In this document: positions 16,879 through 45,755 of the stretch, in pieces
Numbering within the stretch: position 1 is the first letter of the stretch
How the letters are laid out: each line of letters begins with the position of its first letter
DNA from: Arachnia propionica
GTDB lineage: Bacteria > Actinomycetota > Actinomycetes > Propionibacteriales > Propionibacteriaceae
Assembly: GCF_037055325.1 (NCBI RefSeq)
Contig: NZ_CP146373.1
Location: 2,976,001 to 3,040,000, forward strand
Length of the DNA stretch: 64,000 nt
Direction of reading: 5' to 3'
Program-made: the position numbers and the translations under genes
The notes under the pieces: model-generated
Seen by the model: only the letters and a program-made list of their open reading frames with translations
Databases searched by the model: none
Told to the model about the DNA's origin: nothing

Positions 16879-16908
16879 TTGATATTGACCGCCATTATCA
16901 TTTAGGAT
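16879..16908 (+). promoter_or_regulatory. RiPP operon promoter with Fur/Zur-like operator in the spacer
   Basis: The -35-like TTGATA (16879-16884) and -10-like TAGGAT (16903-16908) are separated by exactly 18 bases, TTGACCGCCATTATCATT. That spacer contains TGA-N9-TCA, and its right half ATTATCA is identical to the right half-site of the classical Fur-family 7-1-7 box (TGATAAT-N-ATTATCA). The same layout, 13 of 18 bases identical, occurs in the promoter of the uptake operon (29168-29185, read on the minus strand). A repressor bound here would block RNA polymerase directly. The metal and the regulator are inferred, not shown. Confidence 0.6.
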
Positions 16909-16938
16909 CTCGGGCAGATCACGGAAAGGAGGTGTCCC

Positions 16939-17049
16939 ATGAACCAGGATCTGACGTTTGAGATCGTCGCGCCGCAGTGCGGCAGCGCCTCCGTGGCGCA
17001 TCCAACCTGCTCGAACGCCCTCGTCGAAGACCTCTTCGGCGACGAGTGA
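16939..17049 (+). CDS. RiPP precursor peptide (TOMM-type)
   Basis: A 36-residue peptide with a strong ribosome-binding site (AAAGGAGG, 16925-16932). Residues 1-13 (MNQDLTFEIVAPQ) resemble a short leader with an F-x-x-x-A stretch. The probable core begins at Cys14 and runs CGSASVAHPTCSNA, holding two Cys, four Ser and one Thr that a YcaO cyclodehydratase could convert to azolines/azoles, plus one His. The last ten residues, ALVEDLFGDE, are acidic and free of Cys/Ser/Thr, so they may be a C-terminal follower or a removed tail. It is the first gene of the operon with YcaO and SagB-like enzymes. I know no identical precursor family. Confidence 0.8.
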   Translation: MNQDLTFEIVAPQCGSASVAHPTCSNALVEDLFGDE

Positions 17050-17115
17050 CCACGACGCGGTGAGGTGGGGGCTTCCCACCTCACCGCCCGGCTCTCAGGC
17101 ACCTAGGAGTACACC

Positions 17116-17829
17116 ATGCCGCCCTCCAGCACACTGATCGACACCACACTCGCCGACGGCGTCTGCCTGTTCCGCACCGGCGGCGGGTGGGCGCTACGCC
17201 GCCCGGACAGCCTCTTCGTCCGGCTGCACGGCGCGGCCGCCAGTGCGCTGGATCATGCCACCGAGATCGGAACCGATCCTGTGCTCGGCCCCGCCTTCGC
17301 CGAGGCCGGGTACCTTCATGAGGGTCCCGCCGCCAGCGTTCGCCCAAACCTGCGCCCCCACGGCCGGGGGGTGCTGCACGACATGGTCACCCCACTGCTC
17401 ACCGCCGCGTCCACCCAAAACGGCGAGGCCCCATCCCTCCCTTGCCTACTCCTCGACGCCCCGCCCATGGCCCCAACCGAGAACTACGCCCTGACCGCCT
17501 GGGCCGAGGGCAACCGCGTTTTCGTCAGTCCGTTCGCCCCCGCGGGAGAGGCCGAGCCCTGCCTCGTCACCGATGTCATCGCCCGGCGGATCGCCGCCTC
17601 CGCCACCCCCGGCCTGCTGCGGGACCGCCTCAGCGACCCCGGACGCCGCCCACCGCTGCGGCTGAGCACGCCCGCGGCGCTGCTCATCGCCCACCTCATC
17701 GCCCGCCAGGTGCACGACGTGCCCGCCAGCCGCAGGCGGCTATACTGCCTCGACATCGCGGCTGGCCAGTGGGAACAGCACATGGTCCATCCGGTGCCGC
17801 GCCTGGCGGATTCGGGTCCGCGCACGTGA
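17116..17829 (+). CDS. TOMM cyclodehydratase partner (RRE plus E1/ocin-ThiF-like)
   Basis: 237 residues. The first 80 look like a RiPP recognition element: a winged-helix pattern GGWALRRPDSLFVRLHGAAASALDHATEIG, then AFAEAGYLHE. The rest resembles the shortened ThiF/E1-like C-protein of azole clusters: VFVSPFAPAGEAEPCLVTDVIARRI, then AALLIAHLIARQVHDV, closing with LYCLDIAAGQWEQHMVHPVPR. No complete four-cysteine zinc site is visible. Its job would be to bind the precursor leader and present it to the YcaO enzyme. It lies 66 bases after the precursor gene, and its stop overlaps the next start (GTGA). The assignment rests on pattern and context, not on a clear domain hit. Confidence 0.65.
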   Translation: MPPSSTLIDTTLADGVCLFRTGGGWALRRPDSLFVRLHGAAASALDHATEIGTDPVLGPAFAEAGYLHEGPAASVRPNLRPHGRGVLHDMVTPLLTAASTQNGEAPSLPCLLLDAPPMAPTENYALTAWAEGNRVFVSPFAPAGEAEPCLVTDVIARRIAASATPGLLRDRLSDPGRRPPLRLSTPAALLIAHLIARQVHDVPASRRRLYCLDIAAGQWEQHMVHPVPRLADSGPRT

Positions 17830-19370
17830 ACACCATCCGGGTCACCACCAACGATGGGCTGAGCCTGCACACCGAGATCACGCTGCCCGAGCGTCTCCCC
17901 GCCCCCGCCGTGCTCATCCGCACTCCCTACGGCACCTCCGCCCACCGACAGGAGGCCACCGGCTGGGCCAAGCGAGGATATGCCGCCGTGGTCCAAGACG
18001 TGCGTGGGCGGTACCGCTCCGCCGGTTCCTGGGTGCCCTACACCCACGAAGGCGGGGACGGCGCGGCCACCATCGCCGCCGTCGCCGCCAGCGAGTGGTG
18101 CGACGGCCGAGTCGTGTGCCTGGGCTCCTCCTACAGCGCCCACTGCGCGCTGGTCGCGGCCGCCGCCAGCCCCGGCCCGGTGGCTGCCATCGTGGTGGCC
18201 GTTCCCGCCCTGTCGCCGCGCCGGGTGGCCCGCGACCGCAACGGGGCTCCCCGCTTCTACGGTCACTCCTGGTGGTGGTTCCAGCACGGGCAGGGACGCA
18301 CATCCTCGTCCTGTCCCATCCACGACGCCTCGCCGGACGAACCAGGAGCGCTGAGCATCCTCCCGGCGATCGGCCTGCCCAGCGCGGCCGGGGTGGCAGC
18401 CGCGGGCTGGAGCTTGCCCTGGCTGCGCGATGGGCTGCCCGATTCCTCCCCCACCCCCCTCGACGCTCCGCCGCCCACGGGGAGCCCGCCAGCCCCGCTC
18501 CTGGTGCTCGCCGGGCTGCACGACGTGTTCCGCGACGACGCCCTCGACCTCGCCGACGGCTGGCCGGTGCGGGCCGACGTGGTGGTCGGCGCCTGGCAGC
18601 ACGACCTCGGCCTGGTGCACCGCAACGGCGACGCGGCGCTGCGGCGCCATCAGGCCCACCGCATCAAACCTGGGGTATTCATCGCCGACTGGCTGGAGCG
18701 GACGCTCCGCGATCCCGACGCCACCACACCCGGCAGCAGGCACTTCGCCCTGGAGGGAACCGGGATCTGGGCGCGTCCGGCCCCGGCCCGGCCCCAGCTG
18801 TCCTGCCCGTTGTCGGCGGCCCGGACCCGGTTCGTCGCCGATCCGTGTCACCCGCACCCGTCCGCCCTGGGACCGGTGGATGTGCGCGACATCTCCCGCA
18901 GGGAGGACCTGGCCCGCTTCGTCTCGGACCCGGTGCGCATCGCCACGGACGTGGTGGGACGCATGGTCGTGCGGCTGTCCGGGCTGGCGGCGCACACCCT
19001 CGATGGAGAAGCGGTCCGTGGTCCGCTGGACTGGTGCGTCCGCGTCGCGCTGCGTCCGGCCCCGGCCGACCGCGGCCACACCGGGGCCGGTCTGCTCCAG
19101 CTGGGCCACGCACTCGTGCGCACCCCGGACTCCCGCGCCCGGGTCGAGTTGCCGCTGGTCGCGCGGCGCCTGCACCCCGGTGCGCGGATCGAGGTGCACG
19201 TCTCGGCCCACCAGTTTCCCCTCTACGCCCGCGACCCCCAGGACGGCACCGAGCCCCTCACCGCCACCCGTCTGCGGCCCGCGCGGCGCCAGGTGCTTCG
19301 GGCAAATGTCGAACTGCCCCTGGCGGAGCTGGCGCCCGACCCCACCGAACCCAAGGAGGCGCTTCGATGA
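17826..19370 (+). CDS. S15/CocE-NonD family hydrolase in RiPP operon
   Basis: 514 residues from GTG 17826, overlapping the previous stop; the frame is open further upstream but only as a shadow. The alpha/beta-hydrolase core includes LPAPAVLIRTPYGTSA, the oxyanion/strand region GYAAVVQDVRGRYRSAG, the nucleophile elbow CLGSSYSAHC (Ser), VLAGLHDVFRDDALDLADG (Asp) and VVGAWQHDLGL (His). The C-terminal 200 residues form the jelly-roll domain of X-Pro dipeptidyl-peptidase/CocE proteins. No signal peptide, so cytoplasmic. Within the operon it is the best candidate for trimming or releasing the modified peptide; the predicted core contains a proline (HPTC), which could suit an X-Pro-type enzyme. Its stop overlaps the YcaO start (ATGA). 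Confidence 0.85.
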   Translation: MNTIRVTTNDGLSLHTEITLPERLPAPAVLIRTPYGTSAHRQEATGWAKRGYAAVVQDVRGRYRSAGSWVPYTHEGGDGAATIAAVAASEWCDGRVVCLGSSYSAHCALVAAAASPGPVAAIVVAVPALSPRRVARDRNGAPRFYGHSWWWFQHGQGRTSSSCPIHDASPDEPGALSILPAIGLPSAAGVAAAGWSLPWLRDGLPDSSPTPLDAPPPTGSPPAPLLVLAGLHDVFRDDALDLADGWPVRADVVVGAWQHDLGLVHRNGDAALRRHQAHRIKPGVFIADWLERTLRDPDATTPGSRHFALEGTGIWARPAPARPQLSCPLSAARTRFVADPCHPHPSALGPVDVRDISRREDLARFVSDPVRIATDVVGRMVVRLSGLAAHTLDGEAVRGPLDWCVRVALRPAPADRGHTGAGLLQLGHALVRTPDSRARVELPLVARRLHPGARIEVHVSAHQFPLYARDPQDGTEPLTATRLRPARRQVLRANVELPLAELAPDPTEPKEALR

Positions 19371-20737
19371 CCCCCAGCCTGCGCTACCCGTTCGCCTCCG
19401 ATGAGCGACCCCAGCCAGACCTCGGCGCCGCACTCGACCCGCTGTGCGGCATCATCACGGCGCTGCGTTCCCCCGATATCCCTGGCGGGGCACCGGAGGA
19501 TTTCCTCTGCGTCGTCGCCGAGGTCGCCGACACCCGCCGCTACGGCGGCTGGTACGCCGACCGGATCGCCGCCGGGACGGCCTTCGGCGACCCGGGCCGG
19601 GCCCGCAACGCCGCGATCGGGGAGGCCTTCGAACGCTACTGCGGCAACTTCCTGCCCCCGCTCACCGCCCCCACCAGCCACGCGGCCCTCGTCTCCCGAG
19701 GCAAGGCCGCGCTCGGCCCGGACGACCTGCCGAGGTGGTCGGACGAGCAGCTCAGCAGGCCAGGTTTCGCCTACCGCGAGTTCACCGGCGACACCGAGGT
19801 CGAGTGGGTCGCGGGCGTGGGCGCCAACGGCGCCGAAACCTGGGCGCCCGCGTCCTGGGTCTACCTCAACTATCATCACGGGCCCCGCCGTCAACTGCCC
19901 CGGATCAACCACCTGAACTATTCGGGGATCGCGACCGGCAGCTCCCCCGCCGATGCGGCGCGGCGCGCGCTCGCCGAACTGGTCGAACGGGATGCCATGG
20001 TCACCTGGTGGTACTCGGGCGCCGGGGCCGTCGGGCTGGACCAGGAGACGATTCCCGGTTTCAGGCAGCGGTGGCAGGGCGGCCCTCTCCTCGTCGATCT
20101 CGTCGTCGTGCCGACCGACCTTCCCCTCATCGTGGTCGGGGCCTACGTGTTCGACGAACGCACCGGGGTGCCCGCGTCGGGTTTCGCTGCGGCCCCGGAC
20201 GCCGCCAGCGCGGCCGAGAAGGCCAGCCAGGAGGCGCTCCAGGTCTGGATCGCCTCGTCCGGGCTGCTGCGCCCCGACGGGTCCAGCTGGCGGGCGATCG
20301 CCGAGGGCATCCTGGCCCGCCGGGTCTACTTCCCCTATCGGGAGAACCGGGCCTACCTCGACGACGCCGGTGACGGCTTCCGCCACGTGAAGGACCTCGC
20401 GTCCCAGACCCAGCTCTGGCTCGACCCGCGGATGCTGGCCCACGCCCACCGGTTCACCTCCCCCACGGCCATGGTCTCGGCGGACGAACTGGGCACCGGG
20501 AGCATCGACGAGGTGGTCGCGGCCCTCACCGGGCGAGGCCACCCGCCGGTCGCCTTCGACCTGACCACGCCCGATGTGGCCGAGATCGGCGCCGCGACCG
20601 TGCGGGTGCTGGCCCCCGGCCTGCAACCGAACGCCCCCGCCGGATACCAGTACCTCGGCACCGCCCGCCTGCACCAGCGCAAACAGGACCTGGCCCCCGG
20701 CGCCACCCCGGTCCTGGCCCCACCCCCACACAACTAG
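19367..20737 (+). CDS. YcaO-domain cyclodehydratase
   Basis: 456 residues from ATG 19367, preceded by AAGGAGG (19353-19359). YcaO ATP-binding signatures are present: RARNAAIGEAFERYCGNF near residue 85, SGIATGSSPADAARRALAELVERDAM (the ALxExxERD block) near 205, and AAEKASQEALQVW later. The C-terminus is proline-rich (VLAPPPHN), reminiscent of the PxPxP tail needed for azoline formation. The enzyme uses ATP to activate the amide backbone so that Cys/Ser/Thr side chains cyclise to thiazolines or oxazolines. No TfuA homologue is adjacent, which argues against thioamidation. Operon neighbours are the RRE/E1-like partner and the dehydrogenase that would oxidise azolines to azoles. Confidence 0.92.
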   Translation: MTPSLRYPFASDERPQPDLGAALDPLCGIITALRSPDIPGGAPEDFLCVVAEVADTRRYGGWYADRIAAGTAFGDPGRARNAAIGEAFERYCGNFLPPLTAPTSHAALVSRGKAALGPDDLPRWSDEQLSRPGFAYREFTGDTEVEWVAGVGANGAETWAPASWVYLNYHHGPRRQLPRINHLNYSGIATGSSPADAARRALAELVERDAMVTWWYSGAGAVGLDQETIPGFRQRWQGGPLLVDLVVVPTDLPLIVVGAYVFDERTGVPASGFAAAPDAASAAEKASQEALQVWIASSGLLRPDGSSWRAIAEGILARRVYFPYRENRAYLDDAGDGFRHVKDLASQTQLWLDPRMLAHAHRFTSPTAMVSADELGTGSIDEVVAALTGRGHPPVAFDLTTPDVAEIGAATVRVLAPGLQPNAPAGYQYLGTARLHQRKQDLAPGATPVLAPPPHN

Positions 20738-20748
20738 GGAAAGACGAG

Positions 20749-21858
20749 ATGCCGCACACCACCGACGCCTTGGAGCGCGCCGACCTGCTGGCGGGCCTGA
20801 ACCCGCTGCCGCTCCCCCACGCCCTGCTCGACGTCCTGCGGGCGGGGCTCGGCAGCGACCCGGACCGCCCCGACGCCCGCCTGCGCAGGGTGCCGTCGGC
20901 GGGTGCCCTGCACCCGGTGCAGGTCTACCTCGACCAGCACCGGGACGGGCGGGCCGAGACCGTGCGCTGGTATCCCCACGGCGGGCTGGTTCCGCTGTCG
21001 ACCCGCCAGGCCACGCCCCCCGAACGGGTCGACATCGTCCTGGTTGCCGCCCCGGCCCGCACCATCGCCAAGTACGGTGACCGCGCTCTGACCCCCGTGG
21101 TACTGGACACCGGTTACGCCTTCAGCGCGCTGCTGCACGCCGCGGCCGCCCACGGTCTCGAGTTGTCCCCAGCCCCCGGCTTCCGGGCCCCGGACGACGG
21201 CGGTGCCGCGCTGGCAGCGCTCCGCGTCGGCGCTCCGGCCCACCAGCCGTTCCCCTCCGGTCGTCCCGAACCGGCCGGGGCACGGCCCGGTGGCCTCGTC
21301 GAGGCGGCGCTGCACGAGCTGGCGCGGCACCCGATCACCTCTCCGCTGCCGACCTCCGAGGTGTCCCGCGAGGCCATCGCCACCCGGCGCAGCGCCCCGC
21401 TGGAGAAGCTGGCTTCCGGCTTCGACCTAGGTGCCACCCTGTCCTTCTTCCAGGACGGGCTGCCGCGGCAGTTTCATTCCGGGGTCACGGCCCACGTCGC
21501 CACCGCGAAGGGGGTGTTCACGTGGTGCGAGGGCCACTGGAAACGGGTGAGCCATCGCGACGAACGCCCCGGGCTCGCCGCACGCGCTGCCCATCAGCGG
21601 CAGCTGGCCGACGTCGCTGCGCTGGTTCTCTTCACCGCACCCCCGGCCGCCGGGCTGGGCGGTGCAAACTATCTGGCCTCCCGCTTCGCCATCGCCCACG
21701 CGGGCTATTCGCTGTGCGTCCGCGCGGCCGGGTGGGGCCTGGGAGCCCGCCCGATCGGGGGGTGGAGCGGCCCGCCCGCCCCGGGAACCTGGGACGGCGG
21801 CGAGGCGATCGTCCACGCCGTCGCCCTCGGTGAGACAGGGACGGAGCCTGCCCGATGA
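20749..21858 (+). CDS. SagB-type azoline dehydrogenase (nitroreductase fold)
   Basis: 369 residues. The FMN-dependent SagB/McbC signature is visible in LRRVPSAGALHPVQVYLDQH near residue 45. VLDTGYAFSALLHAAAAHGLELSPAPGF matches the family helix region, and there is a second nitroreductase-like half (ISRFAIAHAGYSLCVRAAGWGLGARPIGGW). It would oxidise azolines from the YcaO reaction to thiazoles/oxazoles with FMN. It follows the YcaO gene after 11 bases with a GGGAAAG ribosome-binding site and overlaps the first ABC exporter by four bases. Two nitroreductase-like halves in one chain fit a ThcOx-like architecture. Assignment as dehydrogenase is strong given context. Confidence 0.85.
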   Translation: MPHTTDALERADLLAGLNPLPLPHALLDVLRAGLGSDPDRPDARLRRVPSAGALHPVQVYLDQHRDGRAETVRWYPHGGLVPLSTRQATPPERVDIVLVAAPARTIAKYGDRALTPVVLDTGYAFSALLHAAAAHGLELSPAPGFRAPDDGGAALAALRVGAPAHQPFPSGRPEPAGARPGGLVEAALHELARHPITSPLPTSEVSREAIATRRSAPLEKLASGFDLGATLSFFQDGLPRQFHSGVTAHVATAKGVFTWCEGHWKRVSHRDERPGLAARAAHQRQLADVAALVLFTAPPAAGLGGANYLASRFAIAHAGYSLCVRAAGWGLGARPIGGWSGPPAPGTWDGGEAIVHAVALGETGTEPAR

Positions 21859-23615
21859 TCCCTCGCCGCCTGCTGGTGCTGACCCTGCGGGTCAAGTGGC
21901 ACGTCCTGGCGTCCATCGTGGCGATCCTGGCCGTCACCTCGACCTACCTGGCCACGGCCCTGGCGACCGCGACCGCCCTCGGCGCCCTCACCAGGGGCGA
22001 GGCGTCCGAGACCCTGGCGTGGATCGCCATCGTGGCCGCGACCGTGCTGGCCCGGGCCGTGCTGATCCCCTTCCGCACCGCGATCACCACGTCCGCGGGA
22101 CTGGCGGTGCGTCGCATCCTGCGGGACGACCTGCTGCACCACGTCATGGCCCTCGGGCCGGAGTGGGCCTCGAAGAGCCGCCTCGGGGCGGCCCAGGCCA
22201 CCATCGTGGAGGGCGTGGACGGGCTGGACCCCTATTACAGCGAGTACCTGCCGCAGCTGGCGGTCACCGTGACCCTGCCCGCCGGGATCGTCGCCGGCGT
22301 CTGGCTGCTCCACCCGCCCTCGGCCGTCTTCCTCGCCTGCTGCCTGCTGGTGACCCTGATCGTCCCCCGGTTCAAGGACGCGGCGATGCTGCGCCAGGGC
22401 AGCGAACGGTGGCGCGCCTACGTCGAACTCAGCGCGGACTACCTGGAGGCCATGCGGGGCATCCCGACACTGCGCACCTTCGGAGCCGCCGAACGCCGCC
22501 GGGACCTGCTGGAGACCCGCAGCACCGGGGTTTACCGGGCCACGATGCGTCCGCTGCGCACCTCGTTGCTGGAGAACGGGATCACGGTCGGGTTCACGCT
22601 CTTCGGCACCTTCGGCGCGGTCTTCCTGGCCACGCTCGCCGCGACCCGCGCCCAACTGCCCGGCACCCACGTCCTGTACGTGCTGATGCTCTCGGTGGAG
22701 TGTTTCCGTCCGGTGCGGGACCTGGCGAAGGCCTGGCACGCGGGTTACCTGGGGCTCACCGCCTCCGACGGGGTGGACGCGATCCTGCGCGCGAGGCCGG
22801 CGGTCGCCGACACCGGCACCGGGACGCTCGCCCTCGGCGGGGCCGCCGAGGTGTCGGTGCACGAGGTCGCCTACACCTATCCCGCGGCCGCCCGGCCCGC
22901 GCTCGACCAGGTGTCGGCGCGGATCCCGGCCGGGCAGCTGACCGCCGTCGTCGGGGCATCCGGCGCGGGCAAATCGACCTTCGCCGCGCTGATCTCGCGT
23001 CGCCTCGACCCGGATTCGGGACGGGTCGAGATCGGCAGCACCGACCTGCGCCGGCTGAGCCTGGCATCCCTGCGGGCGAACCTGGCCGTGGTCGGGCAGC
23101 GCACCCGGCTGTTCCACGACACGGTCGCGGCCAATGTCCGTCTCGGCGCCCCCGAAGCCACCGACGACGAGGTCCGTGCGGCGCTGGCCGAGGCCGACGC
23201 GCTCGGTTTCGTGGAGGAGCTGCCCGAGGGCATCCACACCATGTTGTCGGAGGACGCCACGACGCTGTCCGGCGGTCAGCGGCAGCGCCTCGCCCTCGCC
23301 CGGGCGCTGATCCGCCGCACCCCGGTGCTGCTGCTGGACGAGCCGACCTCGAACGTCGACCGGCACTCCGACGCCCACATCATGGGCACCCTGAGGTCGC
23401 TGACGCCCCGCCACACGATCGTCGTCATCGCCCACCGCCTGGAGAGCATCATGTCGGCCGACCAGGTGATCGTCTTCGACTCCGGCCGGATCGTGGAGCA
23501 GGGCGAGCCCGGGGCGCTCGTCTCCTCCGGTGGGGCCCTGGCGGCCCTGCTGCGGGACGAACGCACCCGCCGGAGGCCGGCTGCCGAACCCCAGGAGGTG
23601 TCTCGTGCGTGGTGA
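21855..23615 (+). CDS. ABC exporter half-transporter 1 (CydD-like)
   Basis: 586 residues: a six-helix membrane domain (about 1-320) fused to a nucleotide-binding domain. Walker A GASGAGKST near 375, Q-loop around VVGQRTRLF, signature LSGGQRQRLALARAL, Walker B VLLLDEPTSNVD and switch VVIAHRLES are all intact. The membrane domain keeps the CydD-like PRFKDAAMLRQGSERW and FGAAERRRDLLETRS segments. It pairs with the next gene as a heterodimer. In this operon the pair most likely exports the mature RiPP; thiol export, as by true CydDC, is less likely since no cytochrome bd genes are near. Start overlaps the dehydrogenase stop. Confidence 0.9.
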   Translation: MIPRRLLVLTLRVKWHVLASIVAILAVTSTYLATALATATALGALTRGEASETLAWIAIVAATVLARAVLIPFRTAITTSAGLAVRRILRDDLLHHVMALGPEWASKSRLGAAQATIVEGVDGLDPYYSEYLPQLAVTVTLPAGIVAGVWLLHPPSAVFLACCLLVTLIVPRFKDAAMLRQGSERWRAYVELSADYLEAMRGIPTLRTFGAAERRRDLLETRSTGVYRATMRPLRTSLLENGITVGFTLFGTFGAVFLATLAATRAQLPGTHVLYVLMLSVECFRPVRDLAKAWHAGYLGLTASDGVDAILRARPAVADTGTGTLALGGAAEVSVHEVAYTYPAAARPALDQVSARIPAGQLTAVVGASGAGKSTFAALISRRLDPDSGRVEIGSTDLRRLSLASLRANLAVVGQRTRLFHDTVAANVRLGAPEATDDEVRAALAEADALGFVEELPEGIHTMLSEDATTLSGGQRQRLALARALIRRTPVLLLDEPTSNVDRHSDAHIMGTLRSLTPRHTIVVIAHRLESIMSADQVIVFDSGRIVEQGEPGALVSSGGALAALLRDERTRRRPAAEPQEVSRAW

Positions 23616-25413
23616 TCTCGCCAGCGACGTCACGGCCCTGAGGCGGCTCTGGCCCGCCATCCGGGCCTACCGCGGCCGTTTCGTCCAGACCGTGCTGGCC
23701 AGCCTGGCGGTCCAGGTCGGCACGGTCGGCGCGGCCGTCGCCTCCGCCTGGCTCGCGGGTCTCGCCCTCGTCACGCTGGATCCGGGCTGGCCCACCGGAG
23801 GAGACGCGGTCCTCAGCGGGCTGGCGCTGCTGCTCGTGGCCGCCGCGGCGGCGGGCACCTGGGCCGAGATGTATGTCGCCCACGACCTGGCCTACCTCGT
23901 GCTGGCGGCCTTCCGCGTCCGGCTGTTCGACCGGTTGCGGCGCACCCAGCCGTCGAGGTCGGATCCCCGGCGCAGCGGGGACCTGTCGGCCACGGCCATG
24001 TCCGACGTGGAGAGCCTGGAGTGGATCTACGCCCACGTGTTCGCCCAGGTCGGGACGGCGGCCGTCACGATCCTCGGCGGCACCGTCGCGCTGGCCCTCA
24101 TCGATCCGGTGGTGCTGGCGGTGCTGGTCCCGGCCACGGTGCTGCTGCTGTCGGTGCCGTGGTGGTTCGCCAGGCGGGCCACCGCGCACGGCGCCGAGTT
24201 GCGTCGCGCCAGCGCCAGCTACACCTCCGACATCATCGACACGGTGCAGGGGCTTTCCGAGATCGCCGAGGCCGGGGCGATGCCGCGCCGCCGGGCCCAG
24301 CTGGACGCGTCCTGGCAGCGGGTGGAACGGGCCGGGGTGCGCAACGCGCTGCGCGGGTCGGTGGAGGCCGCCTCCGGTGACCTGCTGGTGAGCCTGGCCG
24401 CGATCGGCGCCCTGTTCATCGTGTCCCTGCACGTCCACGCCGGGCAGATCCCCGTCTCGTCCGCCCCCATCGTGGTGGCGCTGATCGGGGCGGTGCTGGC
24501 CCCGACGGCCACGGTCGCGTCCACGCTGAAGGAGCTGGGCGGTCTGCGGGCCGCGGCATCCCGCCTGTTCGGGCTGCTGGACGCCCCGGATGCGACCGAA
24601 CCGGCGGCCCACCCGGTCTCCCCGCAACCGACCGACGAGGTGTTGCGGATCTCGTCGCTGTGGTTCGGCTACGACCCCGGACGTCCGGTGCTGCGCGAGC
24701 TCGATTTCGCTCTCCGCCGCGGCGAGGTGGTCGCGGTCGTCGGCGCCTCCGGGGCGGGCAAGAGCACCCTCATCAACCTGATCCGCCGGTTCTGGGACCC
24801 CGACCAGGGAAGCATCAGGATGCTAGGCACCGACATCCGCGACCTCGCCGACGCCGACCTGCGGCGCCACACCGCGATCGTGGAACAGGACGTGCGGGTC
24901 TTCGCCGGGTCGCTGCGCGACAACCTCACCCTGGGCCGGCCCGGGGCGGCTCCGGAGGTCATCGCCACGGCCGTCGAGGACGCCCAGCTCGGCGCCCTGG
25001 TCGCGGGACTACCGGCCGGGCTGGATTCCCCCGTCGGGGAGCGCGGGACCGGGCTGTCCGGCGGCGAGGCGGCCCGGCTGGCCCTGGCTCGCGCGCTGGT
25101 CATGGAACCCGACCTCTTGGTGCTGGACGAGGCCACCGCCAACCTGGACGCGAGCATCGAACTCGAACTGCACCGGGCGCTGACCCGCACCGCTGCCGGG
25201 CGGGCCACCCTGATCGTGGCCCACCGCCGCTCCACCGTGGAACGCGCCGACCGGGTAATCGTGCTAGAGGACGGCCGGATCATCGCCGACACCACGCCCG
25301 ATGGGCTCGCGGCCTCCGGCACCTGGTGGAACGCCCTGCCCGGCCAGGCCAAACAGGCGCGCCCGGGCGAGGACGAGATGCTAGGTGGCGGCGAACTGGG
25401 GCGTAGCCGTTAG
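23605..25413 (+). CDS. ABC exporter half-transporter 2 (CydC-like)
   Basis: 602 residues from GTG 23605, with AGGAGG at 23593-23598 inside the end of the partner gene (11-base overlap). N-terminal membrane domain then nucleotide-binding domain: Walker A GASGAGKST, signature LSGGEAARLALARAL (SGGEA instead of SGGQR), Walker B LLVLDEATANLD and switch LIVAHRRST. All catalytic motifs are conserved in both halves, so both sites may hydrolyse ATP. It is the last gene of the RiPP operon. Its 3' end overlaps the convergent uptake operon by four bases (25410-25413), leaving no room for a bidirectional terminator. Confidence 0.9.
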   Translation: MRGDLASDVTALRRLWPAIRAYRGRFVQTVLASLAVQVGTVGAAVASAWLAGLALVTLDPGWPTGGDAVLSGLALLLVAAAAAGTWAEMYVAHDLAYLVLAAFRVRLFDRLRRTQPSRSDPRRSGDLSATAMSDVESLEWIYAHVFAQVGTAAVTILGGTVALALIDPVVLAVLVPATVLLLSVPWWFARRATAHGAELRRASASYTSDIIDTVQGLSEIAEAGAMPRRRAQLDASWQRVERAGVRNALRGSVEAASGDLLVSLAAIGALFIVSLHVHAGQIPVSSAPIVVALIGAVLAPTATVASTLKELGGLRAAASRLFGLLDAPDATEPAAHPVSPQPTDEVLRISSLWFGYDPGRPVLRELDFALRRGEVVAVVGASGAGKSTLINLIRRFWDPDQGSIRMLGTDIRDLADADLRRHTAIVEQDVRVFAGSLRDNLTLGRPGAAPEVIATAVEDAQLGALVAGLPAGLDSPVGERGTGLSGGEAARLALARALVMEPDLLVLDEATANLDASIELELHRALTRTAAGRATLIVAHRRSTVERADRVIVLEDGRIIADTTPDGLAASGTWWNALPGQAKQARPGEDEMLGGGELGRSR

Positions 25414-26201
25414 GGGAGCCGCTCCCGCGGGGAGTCGATGTGCACCACCAGCCGCCCGGTGTGCTCGTCGGTGCCGACGCGACCGGTGACGGCGAAGACC
25501 TCCTCCAGCAGCTGCGGGGTCACCACGGCGGCCGGGTCGCCGTCGGCGACGATGCGTCCCCGGCTCAGGGCGACCACCCGGTCGGCGTAGCGGGCGGCGT
25601 GTTCCAGGTCGTGCAGCACCGAGACCACCGTCAGACCGCGGGCGCGTCGCAGCCGCGCTATGAGGTCCAGCACCTCCAGCTGATGGCAGATGTCGAGGAA
25701 GGTCGTCGGTTCGTCCAGCAGCAGGATCGAGGCGTCCTGGGCCAGGGACAGGGCCAGCCGGACCCGTTGGCGTTCGCCGCCGGACAGGCTGTCGACCATC
25801 CGGTCGCCGAGGTGGGTCGTGCCGGTCTCGGCCAGCGCGACGGCGCAGTGCTCGTCGAAGGGATCGCGCAGCATCGCCCACATGGATCGCTGCGGAAACC
25901 TGCCGTGGGCCACCAGCTGGCGCACCGTCATGCCCGGGACGCGGGGCAGCTGCTGGGGCAGCAACGCCACCCGCTGGGCGACGAGACGCCGCGGCGTGGA
26001 CGCGATGCTGGTCCCGTCCAGCAGCGACTCGCCCTGGATCCGCAGCTCCCCCGACAGGGCGCGCAGCAGCGTCGATTTTCCGCAGCCGTTCGCCCCGACC
26101 AGGGCAACCCACTCCCCCCGGCCGATCTTGAGGTCGAGGTGATCGAGGACGAGCCGGTCCCCGAACTGGACGCAGGCTCGACGCAGTTCCATCACTGTCA
26201 C
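25410..26201 (-). CDS. FecE-type ABC importer ATPase
   Basis: 263 residues from GTG 26201, which overlaps the permease stop (GTGA) and has AGGAG eight bases before it; an in-frame ATG at 26192 is an alternative. Walker A GANGCGKSTLLRALSG, signature LSGGERQRVRLALSL, Walker B ILLLDEPTTFLDI and switch VSVLHDLEHAARYAD are those of siderophore/haem/cobalamin importer ATPases. It powers uptake with the two FecCD-type permeases and the binding protein upstream. The frame continues upstream across the permease gene, but this is not a fusion. Confidence 0.93.
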   Translation of the reverse strand: MTVMELRRACVQFGDRLVLDHLDLKIGRGEWVALVGANGCGKSTLLRALSGELRIQGESLLDGTSIASTPRRLVAQRVALLPQQLPRVPGMTVRQLVAHGRFPQRSMWAMLRDPFDEHCAVALAETGTTHLGDRMVDSLSGGERQRVRLALSLAQDASILLLDEPTTFLDICHQLEVLDLIARLRRARGLTVVSVLHDLEHAARYADRVVALSRGRIVADGDPAAVVTPQLLEEVFAVTGRVGTDEHTGRLVVHIDSPRERLP

Positions 26202-27196
26202 GGTTCTGACTCCTGGTGTGAGCTGGCCACCGCGACCAGCGCGGCGGCCCCGATGAGGCAGGTGACGGCGCCGACCGGCACCCCCACCTGCTGCCCGTCG
26301 CCGGTGAGCTGGATCGCGAGGCTGACGGCCTTGGCGATGAGGTCGGAGGCGGCGACGAACAGCCCCCCGCACACCGCTACGAGCACCACCTGTCGCCTCA
26401 GCCGCCCGCCGAAGACCAGCCGGACGACGTGGGGCGCGACGAAACCGACGAAGGCGAGCGGCCCCACGGTCGCCACCGCCGCCGAGGCCAGCAGCACCGC
26501 GATCCCGATGCCCACGCCGCGCCAGAACCCGGGTGACACCCCGAGGCAGTGGGCGTGGGAGTCGGAGACCGCGAGGATCTCCAGCCGGTCGGCGACCAGC
26601 ACCAGCGCCGCGAACCCGACGAGGACCGGTATCGCGATCATCGGGACGTGCTCGGCGACGCGGGCCTCCACCGACCCGATCAGCCAGCGCAGCGCTCCCC
26701 CGACGCCGGTGGGCCGGGCGGCGATGAGGATCGTCACCACCCCGGTCAGGGCCAGCGCAGACAACAGGCCGAGCACCGCCGTCTGCTCCGAGGTGCGGCG
26801 GTGGGCCACCAGCCACAGCAGTCCGCCGCCGAGCAGGCCACCCACGGTCGCCGACAACACCGACGAGAACACCGACCCGCCGTCGATGAGCCCGGTCCCG
26901 GAGGCGATCAGGTAGCCGAGCACCGCCGAGGGGTTCACCGCCGTCAGCTCGGGGGCGGCCAGCGGGTTGCGCAGCACCGACTGCAATGCCAGCCCGGCCA
27001 GGCCGAGAGCCGTGCCGGCGAACAGGGCGACGACGAGCCGCGGCAGCCGCAGCTCGGTCAGCACCCGCCACGAGACCGTGTCGGTTCCGGCCAGCAGCTC
27101 GGACCAGTCCACGCCCCGCCCCAGCGCGAGATGGGCGACGGGGACGATGAGCGCGGCGGCCGCGATCCACAGGCCCAGCCAGGCACGACGGCTCAC
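26198..27196 (-). CDS. FecCD-family ABC importer permease (second)
   Basis: 332 residues from GTG 27196 overlapping the stop of the preceding permease. About ten membrane helices. Family motifs include LPRLVVALFAGTALGLAGLALQSVLRNPLAAPELTAVNPSAVLGYL near residue 50 and GPLAFVGFVAPHVVRLVFGGRLRRQV near 255, the latter being the coupling-helix region. It forms a heterodimer with the product of 27193-28140 and moves a metal-chelate or corrinoid-like ligand delivered by the lipoprotein. Codon use matches neighbours. Confidence 0.92.
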   Translation of the reverse strand: MSRRAWLGLWIAAAALIVPVAHLALGRGVDWSELLAGTDTVSWRVLTELRLPRLVVALFAGTALGLAGLALQSVLRNPLAAPELTAVNPSAVLGYLIASGTGLIDGGSVFSSVLSATVGGLLGGGLLWLVAHRRTSEQTAVLGLLSALALTGVVTILIAARPTGVGGALRWLIGSVEARVAEHVPMIAIPVLVGFAALVLVADRLEILAVSDSHAHCLGVSPGFWRGVGIGIAVLLASAAVATVGPLAFVGFVAPHVVRLVFGGRLRRQVVLVAVCGGLFVAASDLIAKAVSLAIQLTGDGQQVGVPVGAVTCLIGAAALVAVASSHQESEP

Positions 27197-28140
27197 CGGT
27201 CCGGCCTCCTCGCCACGAAGACCATGGCGACGCAGAACCCGATCAGCGCGGTCCACGCCCCGAGCGGGGTCTCGAAGGGTTTGAACAGCTCCCGCGCCGC
27301 GATGTCGGCGCCGACGCTCACCCCGGCCCCGATGATCGCCGTCACCGCGAGCCGGAACACCTCACCCGCCCCCGGGACGAACCACCGGGTCACGGTCGGG
27401 GCGACGAAGGCGACCCATGCGATGGGGCCGCAGGCCGCCACCACGAGCGCGACCAGCAACGCGGCGACACCGAGGGCCAGCAGTCGCCAGCAACCCGGCC
27501 TCATCCCCAGGGCGGAGGCCTGCTCGTCGCCGAGGGACAGCACCCCCAGCGCAGGCAGCACCGCGACCGTGGCGGCGCAGCCGATGACCAGGGGGACGAT
27601 CAGCGGCAGGGCGACATCGGCCGTGATCTCGGTGAGCGAACCCACGAGGTATTTGAAGATGATGCTCAACTCGACCTGGTCGGCCGTCGACATCACGGTC
27701 AGCACCGCCGCCTGCCAGGCCGTCGAGACCGCCGCCCCGATGAGCAGGGTCTGCGCGGCGCTGCGTCCCCTCGTGGCCGCGAGCAGGCACAGGGCACCCC
27801 CCGCCACCGCGCCGGCCAGGGCCCCGGCCGTGCGGGACGTCAGCGAGTGGATGCCGCTGGTGACCAGCAGCGCCGCCACGAAGGCGGCTCCCCCGCTGAC
27901 CCCCAGCAGGTCGGGCACCGCGAGCGGGTTGCGCATGGCCCGCTGCACCAGCAGCCCCGCTACCCCGAGCCCGGCCCCGGCGGCCGCACCCACCAGCAGC
28001 CGGGGCAGACGAATCTCAAGGAACACGATCCGCGCGACCCGTCCCGACGCGGGCAGGCCGAGATAGAGGCTTGCCGTGACGAGAGCGGCCCCCGCCACGG
28101 CAAGCAGTATCAGGATCGTGATCCGCTGGCGGAGCCCCAC
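27193..28140 (-). CDS. FecCD-family ABC importer permease (first)
   Basis: 315 residues from GTG 28140, whose G is shared with the TAG stop of the binding-protein gene. Motifs: LEIRLPRLLVGAAAGAGLGVAGLLVQRAMRNPLAVPDLLGVSGGAAF near residue 45 and GPIAWVAFVAPTVTRWFVPGAGEVFRL near 235. It is divergent enough from the next permease to suggest an obligate heterodimer. All four uptake genes overlap or abut, so they form one transcript starting at the operator upstream of the binding protein. Confidence 0.92.
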   Translation of the reverse strand: MGLRQRITILILLAVAGAALVTASLYLGLPASGRVARIVFLEIRLPRLLVGAAAGAGLGVAGLLVQRAMRNPLAVPDLLGVSGGAAFVAALLVTSGIHSLTSRTAGALAGAVAGGALCLLAATRGRSAAQTLLIGAAVSTAWQAAVLTVMSTADQVELSIIFKYLVGSLTEITADVALPLIVPLVIGCAATVAVLPALGVLSLGDEQASALGMRPGCWRLLALGVAALLVALVVAACGPIAWVAFVAPTVTRWFVPGAGEVFRLAVTAIIGAGVSVGADIAARELFKPFETPLGAWTALIGFCVAMVFVARRPDR

Positions 28141-29153
28141 TACTTCTTCAGGTCACGTTCGATGTGGTCCACGGCCTCGGTCACGGCGGTGGCGATGCAC
28201 CGGGTGCCCCGGCAGAACGTCCACAGTTCCTTGTTGACCTCGTGGACGTGGCCGTTCTTCACCGCGGTGAGCTGTTTCCACACCGGGTTGTCGGCGTAGA
28301 TCTCCGTGGCCTTCTTGTCGGTCGGGGCGAAGGTCATCGACGAGACGAACATGACCTTCGGGTCCTTCTCCAGGATCTGCTCCATGCTGTAGGCCCCGGC
28401 CTTGACCGGGTCGGTGCCGAGCACCTCGAATGGGTTGTTGACGACCTTGCCCAGGGCGCTGCCCAGCGGATCGGCACCCTTGGTGGCCACGCCCATGCCG
28501 GAGGCCCCACCCCACATCAGCAGGACGGGTTCACCGGCCACGCCCGCCGTCGTGGCCTTCTGCTTGGCCGCCGCCATGGCCTCCTGGTAGGCCGTCTCGG
28601 CCTTGACCTGGGCGTCCGCCTTGCCGGTGAGCGTCGCGACCATCCGCAGGTAGGCCAGGGAGTCCTCGTCCGTCTTGACGTTGACCAGCAGCACCGGCGA
28701 GAACTTCTCCAGCGCAGGCTTGAGCGCCTCGTGGACGCCCGCGAGCCCGATCACCAGGTCGGGTTTGACCTCTGCGGCGAACGAGGTGTCCTCGGCCCCG
28801 AAGCTGCCCGGCACCACCGGGATGTCCTTGCCCTTGTCGCCGAAGATTTCTGGCCGGGTCGCCAGGTTGGGGGTGGAGGTGGCCACCGGGACGATGCCGA
28901 GGCTGGCCAGGATGTCGTCACAGATGCCGGTGAGGCACACGATGCGCTGCGGAGCGGCGGGAACGCTCACCTCGGCCCCATCGGGGCCGGTCGCGGTGAG
29001 GGCGGGCGTCACCGGGGTGACACCGGCGACGGGCGCCGAGCTCGTCGCCGCCGTTGGGGCAGGAGATGTCCCCGGCGCGTCCGCACCGGGCACGCAGGCC
29101 GACAGGGCGCAGGCGGCAGCAAGGCCCATCAGGACTAGACCACGACGGATCAT
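28140..29153 (-). CDS. FecB-type substrate-binding lipoprotein
   Basis: 337 residues from ATG 29153 with GGGAG seven bases upstream. Lipobox LAAACALSAC near residue 19 gives a lipid-anchored, surface-exposed protein, followed by an Ala/Pro/Thr linker. The periplasmic-binding-protein fold is shown by PQRIVCLTGICDDILASLGIVPVATST, then VKPDLVIGLAGVHEALKPALEKFSPVLLV, and the C-terminal VKNGHVHEVNKELWTFCRGTRCIATAVTEAV. Two cysteine pairs (CLTGIC and CRGTRC) are notable and might form disulphides or bind metal. The ligand is unknown; adjacency and a shared operator suggest the RiPP made by the convergent operon, or its metal complex. Confidence 0.9.
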   Translation of the reverse strand: MIRRGLVLMGLAAACALSACVPGADAPGTSPAPTAATSSAPVAGVTPVTPALTATGPDGAEVSVPAAPQRIVCLTGICDDILASLGIVPVATSTPNLATRPEIFGDKGKDIPVVPGSFGAEDTSFAAEVKPDLVIGLAGVHEALKPALEKFSPVLLVNVKTDEDSLAYLRMVATLTGKADAQVKAETAYQEAMAAAKQKATTAGVAGEPVLLMWGGASGMGVATKGADPLGSALGKVVNNPFEVLGTDPVKAGAYSMEQILEKDPKVMFVSSMTFAPTDKKATEIYADNPVWKQLTAVKNGHVHEVNKELWTFCRGTRCIATAVTEAVDHIERDLKK

Positions 29154-29167
29154 TCGAAACTCCCAAG

Positions 29168-29185
29168 AATGATAGCGGTTATCAA
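29168..29185 (-). promoter_or_regulatory. Fur/Zur-like operator at the uptake-operon promoter
   Basis: On the minus strand the box reads TTGATAACCGCTATCATT, with TGATA/TATCA arms around five bases. It matches the Fur-family 7-1-7 consensus in 11 of the 14 defined positions. It overlaps a likely -10 (TATCAT), which sits 16 bases after a -35-like TTGCCC, and ends 15 bases before the ATG at 29153. It shares 13 of 18 positions and identical spacing with the box in the RiPP promoter. The cognate regulator is not encoded in this window. Confidence 0.6.
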
Positions 29186-29473: not shown

Positions 29474-30199
29474 ATGAGCAAGGACGCCTACGCCGTCAGC
29501 GCGCAGGTCTACGACCTGCTCAACGCCAGTTTTCGCCTGGGGCAGGTGGCGGCCCTGGAGAGGCTGATTCCGCTGGTCCGCGCCGAGTCGGGGCCGGTAC
29601 TCGACATCGGGGCCGGGTCGGGCCTGAACACGGTCTTCGTCCTGGAGCGCCTACCGGAGGCACACGTGTACGCCCTGGAACCCAGCCCCGCGATGAGGGC
29701 GCTGGTCCTGACGAAGGTCGCCGCGCACCCGGAGTGGTTCGACCGGGTCACGATCCGACCCGAGGCCTTCGGCGCCGCTCCCCTGCCTGATGCCATCAGC
29801 GCGGCGATCCTGCTGGGCGTCCTCGGCCACTTCAGCCCGGACGAACGGTCCGCACTGTTCGCCGCCATCGCAGCCCGGCTCCCCGAGGGCGGGGCCGCCC
29901 TGACGGACTTGCAGCCGCCCTGTCGGCCCGCGCGGGTGGAACCCTACGAGACCGCCAGCGCCCGGATCGGCGACCTGACCTATAGCGGCCTCGCGGAAGG
30001 ATGGCCACTCGACGACGAGCGCATGCACTGGAAGATGACCTGCCGCACCCTTGACGGCGATCGCGTGCTGGCCGAGGAGACCACCGAGTACCTGTTCCGC
30101 CACCCGGACCCCGAGGCCATCCGGACCGAACTCCGCGCCACCGGACTCAGCCTCGACCAGATCGAAGACACCACCTTCTACCTCATCGTCAAGGACTGA
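29474..30199 (+). CDS. Class I SAM-dependent methyltransferase
   Basis: 241 residues. The SAM-binding glycine loop is VLDIGAGSGLNTVFVLERL near residue 45, the acidic ribose-binding residue is in VYALEPSPAMRAL, and the motif-IV region is AAILLGVLGHFSPDER. The C-terminal half carries WKMTCRTLDGDRVLAEETTEYLFRHPD, a beta-rich substrate-specific part like that of small-molecule methyltransferases. It is divergently oriented from the uptake operon across about 320 bases and is not in the RiPP operon, so it could be a tailoring enzyme or unrelated. Only one of these can be decided experimentally; the family call itself is firm. Confidence 0.85.
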   Translation: MSKDAYAVSAQVYDLLNASFRLGQVAALERLIPLVRAESGPVLDIGAGSGLNTVFVLERLPEAHVYALEPSPAMRALVLTKVAAHPEWFDRVTIRPEAFGAAPLPDAISAAILLGVLGHFSPDERSALFAAIAARLPEGGAALTDLQPPCRPARVEPYETASARIGDLTYSGLAEGWPLDDERMHWKMTCRTLDGDRVLAEETTEYLFRHPDPEAIRTELRATGLSLDQIEDTTFYLIVKD

Positions 30200-30413: not shown

Positions 30414-30443
30414 AACTGCAACATTGTTACAGCTTGTTACAGT
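30414..30443. repeat. 30-bp repeat, copy at the 3' end of the AlbA_2 gene
   Basis: A 30-base sequence with core CAACATTGTTACAGCTTG abuts the stop codon of the gene at 30444. The same 30 bases, with one substitution, lie just before its start codon (31856-31885) in direct orientation. The repeat includes the near-palindrome CTGCAAC-ATT-GTTACAG and a further CTTGTTACAG half-site. Confidence 0.8.
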
Positions 30444-31850
30444 TCAGGTGAGGTGCCAGGTGGCGCGTGGGTCTTGTTTGGCGGAGCCTTCCCGGATGAC
30501 GAGTCCGAGTTCTTCCAGCTGGGCTAGCGCCCGGGTGGCGGTCATGCGGGCTACCCCTGCCAGTTCGGCCAGCGCCCCGGTGGAGAGCGGCTCCCCCGTC
30601 TGGCGCAACGTGTTCAGAATGGCGATCGCGCTGCGGGTGAGCCGGGAGCGGATTTCTTCGGGGAGCGCCTCCTGTGCCGACAAGGTGAGAGTCACCGAGG
30701 AAGAGGATTGGAAATAGTGGGGATCGACGAGCCCGCGTCCACGCATCTCGGCGAATAGCCGCGCGATCCCTTCCCCGAGCTCTCTGGTGTACCCCAAGTC
30801 GGCGCACACCCGGGCGATGCGCGGGTTACGGGCATAGCGCCGGATATCGAGCGGGCGTTGGGGTTCGACGATGCCCGGGAATCTTCCTGGCGAGGTGATC
30901 TCGATCCGGCTTGGGAAAATCTCAAAGCGAATGTGGTCGCCCATGGTGCTGTACGAGCGATGAACGACGGCGTTGACCAGCCCCTCCAGCCAGGCATCCC
31001 GGGGAATCCGGGAGATGGGTTCGAAGGTGCCCGCGTCACTCAGTTGCTGCCAGGCGGGCATCATGTCCTCGATCTGGCGGATGGCTTCGGAGATCTGCCG
31101 CAGCAGGGAACCTTCCACCCGGCGGTCCTGTTCGAGCGTCATGTTTCGTCCCACGCCCCGGTGTTCCGCCCCGTACTTGAGAATCCGGACGACGGCATTG
31201 GGAAACTCACGCTGGGGACGCTCGTCGAACAGCAGCTCGCTGGCCACGGTGAGCCGACCCCGGCGATCCACCAGGTCGCGCGCGGCCAGCGCACCCTCAA
31301 TGGTCGCCGCGCCGATGCGTTCGGCGTAATCCGCCAGGGCCTGCTGGTCGAGATCCACCAGGGTGAGGTTCACGGGAGTGGCTTCATAGTGCGCCATGCC
31401 CCGGTCGAACACGAGCTCACGCTGCTGCGCGGCAGTCAACCGCCGCGACTCATCGCCAACCCGCAGGTAGCACTCACCCTTCTGGGTGACGTGCACGGTC
31501 TCCCCCGGAGCGACGTTCAGCAGGACGAGAGTGGCCGGCTCGCCTTCGGCGTCCAGCGCCTCAACCTCTTCCACCCGGGCGCGTACCGGCGGTTCAGTGT
31601 AGTCGAGGCAGGCTTGCCGCAGCTCGTTGCGCCGCCGCGCTGACACGTCCTCCACCTTGCCGTCGTGGAGCCCAACGACAATCACCCCGCCATCGGCGTT
31701 GGCCATAGCCACCAGCGGGACCGCGAGATCACGTGGCGACACGCGAGCGGACTTGCGTTCGAACCACTGATCTTCCGCAAGGGCCAGCAGCGCTGGCCCC
31801 ACCTGCTCTGGGGGCAACGTCAGGCTACGATCCACGACTGCCGAGGTCAT
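30444..31850 (-). CDS. Schlafen AlbA_2 / HATPase_c_4 regulator
   Basis: 468 residues. The N-terminal AlbA_2 (Schlafen-type) domain covers about 25-140 (DQWFERKSARVSPRDLAVPLVAMANADGGVIVVGL). The middle and C-terminal parts match the ATP-binding putative-transcriptional-regulator family: PRDAWLEGLVNAVVHRSYSTMGDHIRFEIF, SPGRFPG, and RNPRIARVCADLGYTRELGEGIARLFAEM. A winged-helix tail (ILNTLRQTGEPLSTGALAELAGVARMTATRALAQLEELGLV) binds DNA. Such proteins are often found near restriction or defence loci; here it sits next to the hsd operon. Two 30-bp direct repeats containing CTGTAAC-ATT-GTTACAG bracket the gene exactly; the upstream copy is a likely autoregulatory operator. Confidence 0.85.
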   Translation of the reverse strand: MTSAVVDRSLTLPPEQVGPALLALAEDQWFERKSARVSPRDLAVPLVAMANADGGVIVVGLHDGKVEDVSARRRNELRQACLDYTEPPVRARVEEVEALDAEGEPATLVLLNVAPGETVHVTQKGECYLRVGDESRRLTAAQQRELVFDRGMAHYEATPVNLTLVDLDQQALADYAERIGAATIEGALAARDLVDRRGRLTVASELLFDERPQREFPNAVVRILKYGAEHRGVGRNMTLEQDRRVEGSLLRQISEAIRQIEDMMPAWQQLSDAGTFEPISRIPRDAWLEGLVNAVVHRSYSTMGDHIRFEIFPSRIEITSPGRFPGIVEPQRPLDIRRYARNPRIARVCADLGYTRELGEGIARLFAEMRGRGLVDPHYFQSSSSVTLTLSAQEALPEEIRSRLTRSAIAILNTLRQTGEPLSTGALAELAGVARMTATRALAQLEELGLVIREGSAKQDPRATWHLT

Positions 31851-31855
31851 AGAGT

Positions 31856-31885
31856 AACTGTAACATTGTTACAGCTTGTTACAGT
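31856..31885. repeat. 30-bp repeat and palindromic operator upstream of the AlbA_2 gene
   Basis: Five bases before the ATG at 31850 lies the second copy of the 30-bp repeat. It contains the perfect palindrome CTGTAAC-ATT-GTTACAG (31858-31874) and an extra GTTACAG half-site. Placement directly over the translation start suggests repression by a DNA-binding protein, possibly the gene product itself. Confidence 0.75.
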
Positions 31886-44892: not shown

Positions 44893-45120
44893 TCAGGGCT
44901 GGTCTGCGAGGCTGAACAGGTCACCGACCTCGCAGTCCAGCGCCTCGCACAGCGCCGTCAGGGTGCTGAACCGAACGGCCCTCGCGCGGTTGTTCTTCAG
45001 GATCGACAGGTTGACCACGGTGATACCGACCTTTTCGCTGAGGGCCGCGAGCGTCACACCCCGGGCCGCGAGCAGATCGTCCAGGTGGCAGGTAATCCGA
45101 TGGGGTTCCTCGACAGGCAT
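44893..45120 (-). CDS. XRE-family regulator (YozG/Cro-like)
   Basis: 75 residues. A compact helix-turn-helix: LDDLLAARGVTLAALSEKVGITVVNLSILKNNRARAVRFSTLTALCEALDCEVGDLF. This type is nearly always paired with a DUF2975 membrane protein. Its ATG 45120 overlaps that gene's TGA (TGATG), confirming coupling. It probably represses the operon by binding the TATCG-N5-CGATA palindromes at 45756-45803, upstream of the first gene. The signal sensed by the pair is unknown. Confidence 0.9.
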   Translation of the reverse strand: MPVEEPHRITCHLDDLLAARGVTLAALSEKVGITVVNLSILKNNRARAVRFSTLTALCEALDCEVGDLFSLADQP

Positions 45121-45740: not shown

Positions 45741-45755
45741 CGGGACCTCCTAACA

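Follow-up and report, generated by a model that had tools for sequence, protein, structure and literature searches.

Why does a bacterium set an operon for a ribosomally made, YcaO-modified peptide end to end with an operon for a siderophore-type importer? The question is raised by a stretch of the genome of Arachnia propionica (here the window: 64,000 nucleotides, positions 2,976,001-3,040,000 of a 3.3-Mb single-contig genome), in which a biosynthetic operon of seven genes (16939-25413, plus strand) converges on a FecBCDE-type importer operon (25410-29153, minus strand), the two 3' ends sharing 4 bp (25410-25413). The answer proposed here, held with about even confidence, is that these operons form a Zur-controlled make-export-reimport system of the streptamidine (ami) family, in an HPTC subfamily whose His/Cys amidine peptide scavenges zinc. 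Control of both operons by Zur is itself well supported by the boxes at their promoters and in related loci.

The cluster and its relation to streptamidine

The first biosynthetic gene (16939-17049) encodes an amiA-type precursor of 36 residues, MNQDLTFEIVAPQCGSASVAHPTCSNALVEDLFGDE, with the probable core HPTC and the follower SNALVEDLFGDE. It is followed by an amiB-type partner resembling a recognition element (RRE) of ribosomally synthesized and post-translationally modified peptides (RiPPs) or an E1-like protein (17116-17829), an amiC-type S15/CocE hydrolase (17826-19370; PF02129 E 5.6e-32, TIGR00976 over its cut-off), an amiD-type YcaO enzyme (19367-20737; PF02624 E 1.4e-46) and an amiE-type SagB-like dehydrogenase (20749-21858; TIGR03605 E 7.7e-7 and Nitroreductase E 1.6e-4, both sub-cut-off). 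Two half-exporters of the adenosine triphosphate-binding cassette (ABC) type, both matching ABC_membrane and ABC_tran, end the operon: amiT1 (21855-23615) and amiT2 (23605-25413, from a probable GTG start). Thresholds for azole-type (linear azole-containing peptide, LAP) enzymes are missed by the YcaO protein (TIGR03604, 202.4 bits, cut-off 219.25) and by the SagB-like protein (28.8 of 78.4 bits), for which no PDB sequence match was found. The amiB-type protein has no Pfam match and matches TIGR03882 below cut-off (E 0.0015). Its 10 homologues (alignment A3) all adjoin S15 and YcaO genes, and the top Foldseek matches of its AlphaFold model (predicted local distance difference test, pLDDT, 73.5) are the YcaO heterocyclases (4v1u, TruD) and McbBCD, at a template modelling (TM) score of about 0.4.

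The importer operon, on the minus strand, encodes a binding lipoprotein (28140-29153), two FecCD permeases (27193-28140, PF01032 E 1.5e-53; and 26198-27256, E 5e-53, start uncertain) and a FecE-type ATPase (25410-26192; ABC_tran, with FecE as top NCBIfam match, sub-cut-off). NCBIfam and PDB sequence matches place the lipoprotein in the siderophore class, and the structures closest to its predicted model (pLDDT 86.1) are the siderophore-binding HtsA, FecB and YfiY. A pair of cysteines in it (C73 and C78 in the window) is invariant in 15/15 aligned sequences (alignment A4). A siderophore-class binding protein and FecCD permeases, which here adjoin the biosynthetic genes, are regarded as markers of metallophore clusters (PMC12971057).

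The same gene set is known from the streptamidine cluster of Streptomyces albidoflavus J1074 (MIBiG BGC0002115; Russell 2021, PMC8442711), one of over 90 clusters with amiF1-F4 (FecBCDE-like), amiA, B, C, D, E and T1/T2. The window holds amiA-E, T1/T2 and F1-F4 complete, although amiB and amiE are recognised through weak or structural matches, and equals the J1074 set in the ALV-motif amiA, the exporter pair and the importer as well. Streptamidine is HLSATH with a six-membered amidine joining the His1 amine to the Leu2 carbonyl; Ser and Thr are unmodified, and an S3C change in the core abolishes production. The family is reported from over 230 species, and the role of streptamidine was left unknown in 2021 (PMC8442711). 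On this comparison the window cluster is of the ami type, its composition already known and its product class amidine rather than azole. An earlier note on this DNA had correctly read the gene content of both operons and their four-base overlap, as gene calls and profile matches bear out, and the siderophore class of the binding protein is in keeping with its metal-chelate view of the importer; its statement that no system of this composition had been described does not hold beside the published cluster.

The window differs from J1074 in several respects. Its importer operon converges on the biosynthetic operon; its core, HPTC, is two residues shorter than HLSATH, with a Cys and lacking the Ser3 that is conserved in motif A; and its follower reads SNALVEDLF rather than SNALVENPF. 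The precursor escapes the streptamidine model NF040714 (no match at E up to 10, and none elsewhere in NCBIfam), as does that of the HPTC relative L190. In a quick tree the window YcaO forms a clade with those of loci L152 (Longimycelium) and L148 (Pimelobacter) (Shimodaira-Hasegawa-like approximate likelihood-ratio support, SH-aLRT, 95), and the precursors of these two nearest YcaO relatives pass NF040714; L120, a relative with two YcaO genes, has a precursor that passes NF040715, the repeat model.

The ALV motif of the window precursor aligns with that of streptamidine-type precursors (AHPTC-SNALVEDLF against LAHLSATH-SNALVENPF), and MAFFT pairs VAHPTC with HLSATH without gaps. HPTC is taken as the core on account of the Ala-His junction and of the AHPTC string, which is kept in L190 and in L201, L202 and L203, although the core could be VAHPTC or longer. 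The last three come from a targeted search that covered 297 genomes of the family of L190 and gave 11 matches; of the 10 new loci fetched from these, 3 carry the string, as AHPTCNHALVADLF. This recurrence argues that HPTC is a conserved alternative core, and by sequence the window member belongs to a divergent HPTC subfamily that NF040714 overlooks. HPTC pairs His with Cys where the streptamidine core pairs His with His, and Cys is found in 0/13 other aligned precursors (a chosen sample). Cys, Ser and Thr number five in QCGSASVAHPTC and two in HPTC. Dehydrated HPTC has a calculated [M+H]+ of 439.1758; HLSATH, calculated in the same way, comes to 647.326, in agreement with the published value. 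The corresponding figures are 609.28 for VAHPTC and 1142.47 for QCGSASVAHPTC. A rule by which AmiC would cut behind X-Pro, with VAP, ELP or APH preceding the core, was discarded as a misfit with cleavage between LA and HLSATH.

Zur-type boxes in the window and in related loci

Box 1 (TGACCGCCATTATCA, 16886-16900, plus strand) lies 5' of the precursor gene, and box 2 (TGATAACCGCTATCA, 29170-29184, minus strand) lies 16 bp from the importer start codon. The earlier note saw the same 18-bp box at both promoters; a Zur-type box does stand at each, in the form of two distinct 15-bp sites of 7-1-7 type that are alike at 10/15 positions (counted by eye). An initial motif, TGATAnnnnnnATTATCA, was in the wrong register, and the 7-1-7 model was adopted instead. 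Mismatches to the consensus TGAWAATGATTWTCA number 3 in box 2 and 4 in box 1. A Zur matrix trained on 30 sites from other loci (window and genome G023 excluded; training minimum 21.2) ranks box 2 first (26.1) and box 1 second (21.8) in the 64-kb window, followed by a site at 27654-27668 (16.8) within the permease gene 27193-28140. The training sites were chosen by consensus, and the independent scores are those of the window, G023 and the organism's own znuA (22.4). In G023, a genome of the same genus, the block is kept at about 97% identity from 16879, just 5' of box 1, with both boxes retained and the precursor identical.

The only Fur-family match in the genome adjoins znuA, whose promoter has TGATAATGATTCTCG, and this protein is probably Zur; the earlier preference for Zur over an iron regulator accords with it. 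For comparison, the Zur consensus of S. coelicolor is TGAAAATGATTTTCA, and a C. glutamicum site reads TAATGATAACGGTTATCATTT (PMC2823685). Scanning the genome for TGATAnnnnnTATCA with one mismatch allowed gives 24 places, of which one, box 2, is exact. Control of the window by DtxR was considered and set aside, the best DtxR-like match before the precursor having 8 mismatches; DtxR-like counts here and below use a presumed DtxR consensus. The sequences thus speak well for Zur control of both window operons, and so for the earlier view of the two as one metal-regulated system.

Related loci extend this pattern. With a Zur-like box defined as at most 3 mismatches to TGAWAATGATTWTCA, one occurs within 400 bp 5' of the precursor in 21/26 loci of the ALV type, as against 2.8% of 1560 random windows, a control that ignores AT-rich promoters. 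Among 13 further loci, 11 have such a box within 300 bp, placed 60-84 bp from the start codon, where shuffled windows, which account for AT-rich promoters, lead one to expect 0.01. Precursor starts in both sets were partly hand-set from tblastn matches. A last batch has the box within about 125 bp of the precursor in 10/10 new loci, and in the four HPTC relatives (L190, L201, L202 and L203) it is free of mismatches. Importer genes are preceded by one in 13/14 loci, the window included, the miss being L190. Of 24 loci that belong to other types, 14 have a Zur-like box, and 3 a DtxR-like one, ahead of the gene that opens the exporter or YcaO operon. In block shuffles over 80 records, 59 Zur-like sites compare with 7.4 expected and 13 DtxR-like sites with 5.6 expected. 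These sets comprise different, although related, loci, and may share species.

A COG0523-type GTPase, a usual Zur target (PMC2823685), has a homologue near the cluster in 5/112 records, and in L182 it stands next to the YcaO operon. No YcaO RiPP linked to Zur or to metallophores was found among the open-access titles and abstract openings listed, a search with preprints and most subscription journals outside it, and the word Zur is absent from the available main text of the streptamidine paper (PMC8442711). As far as searched, the Zur-like boxes before ami precursor and importer genes therefore appear to be new, as do the HPTC subfamily and the pairing of core type with box type in the fused-YcaO branch described below. 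Metallophores under Zur are themselves familiar in actinomycetes: coelibactin and ethylenediamine-disuccinate are so controlled, like the metallophore-type genes of the window, but are non-ribosomal, unlike its predicted peptide (PMC6103462).

Linkage to the importer, sister branches and neighbouring genes

The earlier note had suggested comparing the neighbourhoods of homologous YcaO genes, and the comparison favours linkage. In an alignment-based search of genome contigs that kept the best 80 of at least 191 confirmed relatives (79 loci), FecCD lies within 8 kb of YcaO in 55/79 loci, and in 44/59 among those flanked by 8 kb or more on each side. The window YcaO as a lone query gave no match in the genome contigs. 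The same gene set, FecCD and ABC pair included, is found in 15/15 further ami clusters from the class, in which 33 of 394 genomes matched. Among the last 10 ami loci, 9 have FecCD (the contig of the tenth is 10 kb long) and 6 the ABC pair. Starting from the binding protein instead, 13/391 genomes of the order match, and outside the genus 8/11 adjoin precursor, S15 and YcaO genes; within the genus it occurs in this genome and G023 only (E <= 1e-25). Importer-linked loci come from Actinomycetota, Bacillota (L129), Acidobacteriota (L113) and Chloroflexota (L081).

Chance seems a poor account of this association. The genome holds 17 FecCD matches, 16 of them over cut-off, at about ten sites, so that the estimated chance of one near any gene is a few per cent. 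FecCD was seen at 0/17 other YcaO loci of the family (one family; some contigs short). Three further YcaO genes of other types in the own genome (G000: 1881081, 1960767 and 2768804) have no FecCD in the surrounding stretches. Among the importer-less loci, six belong to a single clade of Amycolatopsis and 9 have short flanks. At L177, L184 and L185, the three remaining matches outside the genus, homologues of the binding protein stand with FecCD/FecE and no YcaO within about 9 kb; these importers may serve to take up peptides from other producers or from genes elsewhere in the genome. A homologue of a major facilitator superfamily (MFS) transporter occurs in 29/112 records, including the 8 Nocardioidaceae-type clusters (L148 and L178 being one genome), and is a possible substitute for the ABC pair. 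YcaO with MFS genes and no importer is seen in L108 (Cutibacterium avidum), L031, L033 and L036; in L108 a candidate precursor at 9493-9576 contains APNGNHHPSPTQG.

A sister branch, with L032 and L035 among its members, has a YcaO that carries a fused N-terminal part, and short His-rich precursors lie beside it, with no NCBIfam match for the five tried. Seven of these loci (L094, L095, L097, L099, L102, L104 and L111) have PHCHH cores. Their best DtxR-like matches have 1 (L097), 2 (L099, L104), 3 (L111), 4 (L095) or 5 (L094, L102) mismatches of 19, and their best Zur matches 3-7 of 15 (L099 3, L095 4). Where the core is PHNH, PNSHNH or PNSNHH, 9/12 loci examined have a Zur box that stays within 3 mismatches, a count that left out L078, L079, L083, L106 and L108, which have such cores too. 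The exceptions are L075 (4 mismatches), L087 (5) and L141 (5, with a DtxR-like box at 3). The promoter stretches were hand-chosen and 62-1594 bp long. In these sequences iron-type control thus tends to accompany a Cys in the core, and zinc-type control Asn/Ser, over few independent events because the PHCHH loci form two tree groups. Loci with two YcaO genes, S15 and tandem-repeat precursors of the QGPGTNALVHNPF type (L117-L125, L131, L132, L139, L143, L145 and L149) fit the published motif B group by description, and most have Zur-like boxes. In the cores of most groups listed, His is combined with His or Cys.

The window has several other features. G+C is 0.73-0.74 over 18 to 28 kb, as compared with 0.56-0.68 for the 2-kb blocks that lie left of it. 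A gene resembling S-adenosylmethionine (SAM) methyltransferases (29474-30199) adjoins the importer promoter, is also present in G023, may modify the product and has 53% identity to one beside YcaO genes in G112 (L027). Its membership of the cluster was entertained, fused-YcaO relatives carrying methyltransferases, and dropped, as none appears in the ami-cluster tblastn tables (weak matches filtered). A 30-bp direct repeat (97%; 30414-30443 and 31856-31885) exactly flanks a minus-strand gene (30444-31850) that by its look is presumably an AlbA_2/RecG-like regulator; the copies contain the palindrome-like T.TAACATTGTTACA or T.CAACATTGTTACA and could be operators or insertion traces. An AT-rich palindrome-like sequence, TGATAAACGATATTATCG (45776-45793), precedes a membrane-protein gene (45120-45749, minus strand) and scores only 10.0 with the Zur matrix.

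Proposed zinc scavenging and its alternatives

In the proposed mechanism, Zur would repress both operons when zinc is sufficient, and would leave its boxes when zinc is scarce, so that both are transcribed. The AmiB-like protein would then bind the 36-residue precursor and present it to YcaO; the S15 hydrolase may help free the N-terminal His; and YcaO, as in streptamidine, would form the amidine from the His1 amine to the residue-2 carbonyl, giving a product near dehydrated HPTC. The trimmed peptide would leave through the ABC pair and could bind zinc outside by imidazole, thiol and amidine nitrogens, the complex presumably returning via the lipoprotein, FecCD and FecE. Up to the peptide, this scheme leans on published streptamidine genetics; the zinc step is one that we infer.

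Several observations weigh against zinc scavenging. Metal binding by streptamidine went undetected by chrome azurol S (CAS) assay or liquid chromatography-mass spectrometry (LC-MS) with seven metals, zinc included; an amiD mutant had no phenotype in metal starvation; and deletion of the importer genes led to loss of the product (PMC8442711). Box 1, at 4 mismatches, fails the 3-mismatch threshold, and the window is accordingly one of the misses in the ALV-type set, with L113, L129, L132 and L143; L195 and L199 are those of the 13 further loci. No FecCD occurs in the available stretch for 24/79 YcaO loci, and 15 of the 24 have flanks of 8 kb or more on either side. Cores of the two-YcaO branch, such as QGPGTNALVHNPF, hold at most one His. 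The negative metal tests could possibly be reconciled by zinc status, by masking through znuABC, by a second component or by an affinity limited to forms such as HPTC.

The same tests lend most to the idea of an amidine peptide that is made under Zur control and is not a metallophore, signalling instead zinc starvation or population state and being sensed or taken up via the FecBCD-type system. Product loss on importer deletion fits feedback, and the streptamidine authors, who considered metal import, themselves also suggested signalling or development (PMC8442711). A binding protein and permeases of siderophore class speak against it, as does a metal-regulated sister group with other cores, and we consider it unlikely, if worth keeping in mind. 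That the peptide carries copper, cobalt, nickel or iron under Zur control appears improbable: His/Cys peptides generally bind several metals, and regulator and cargo may differ, yet Zur-type boxes stand at both promoters and at many loci, and it is the PHCHH group that has DtxR-like boxes instead.

There is still less to recommend the ribosomal azole metallophore of the earlier note, in which YcaO and the SagB-like enzyme turn Cys into thiazoles. Two Cys and one Thr in the window precursor, the SagB-like gene and a Pro-rich C-terminal tail on YcaO would suit it; the characterised relative, dehydrogenase gene included, nevertheless carries the amidine with unmodified Ser and Thr (PMC8442711), and several related precursors (for example that of L129) lack Cys, Ser and Thr throughout their conserved stretch. 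The bufferins, ribosomal peptide metallophores made by MNIO proteins and proposed to handle metals, reportedly described by Leprevost in 2024, involve a different modifying enzyme. Bottromycin, for its part, is antibacterial. Both it and klebsazolicin have YcaO-made amidines as in ami, with no importer mentioned for either in the available text (PMC8442711). A competition agent induced by zinc starvation, entering rivals via their importers while its own serves self-uptake or immunity, is equally hard to credit, since streptamidine was neither antibacterial nor antifungal in published assays, although dedicated exporters are present and other YcaO products, such as klebsazolicin, are antibacterial (PMC8442711).

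Zinc scavenging by the HPTC peptide could be one instance of a wider pattern, to which we give somewhat less than even credence: YcaO-modified His peptides may be widespread ribosomal metallophores, with ami and PHNH/PNSNHH zincophores under Zur and PHCHH siderophores under DtxR. In the PHCHH group, the Zur match of L099 is within the threshold, and L095 and L102 match Zur and DtxR boxes equally, which lowers that credence slightly. If the pattern holds, a single gene-encoded core residue would go with the metal, and the purpose of streptamidine would be answered. The Zur boxes name low zinc as the condition under which the function of ami should be sought, and may explain the negative metal tests, while the HPTC subfamily offers an exact mass to look for. 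More broadly, small metal chelators would be gene-encoded by bacteria, with the metal readable from the core sequence.

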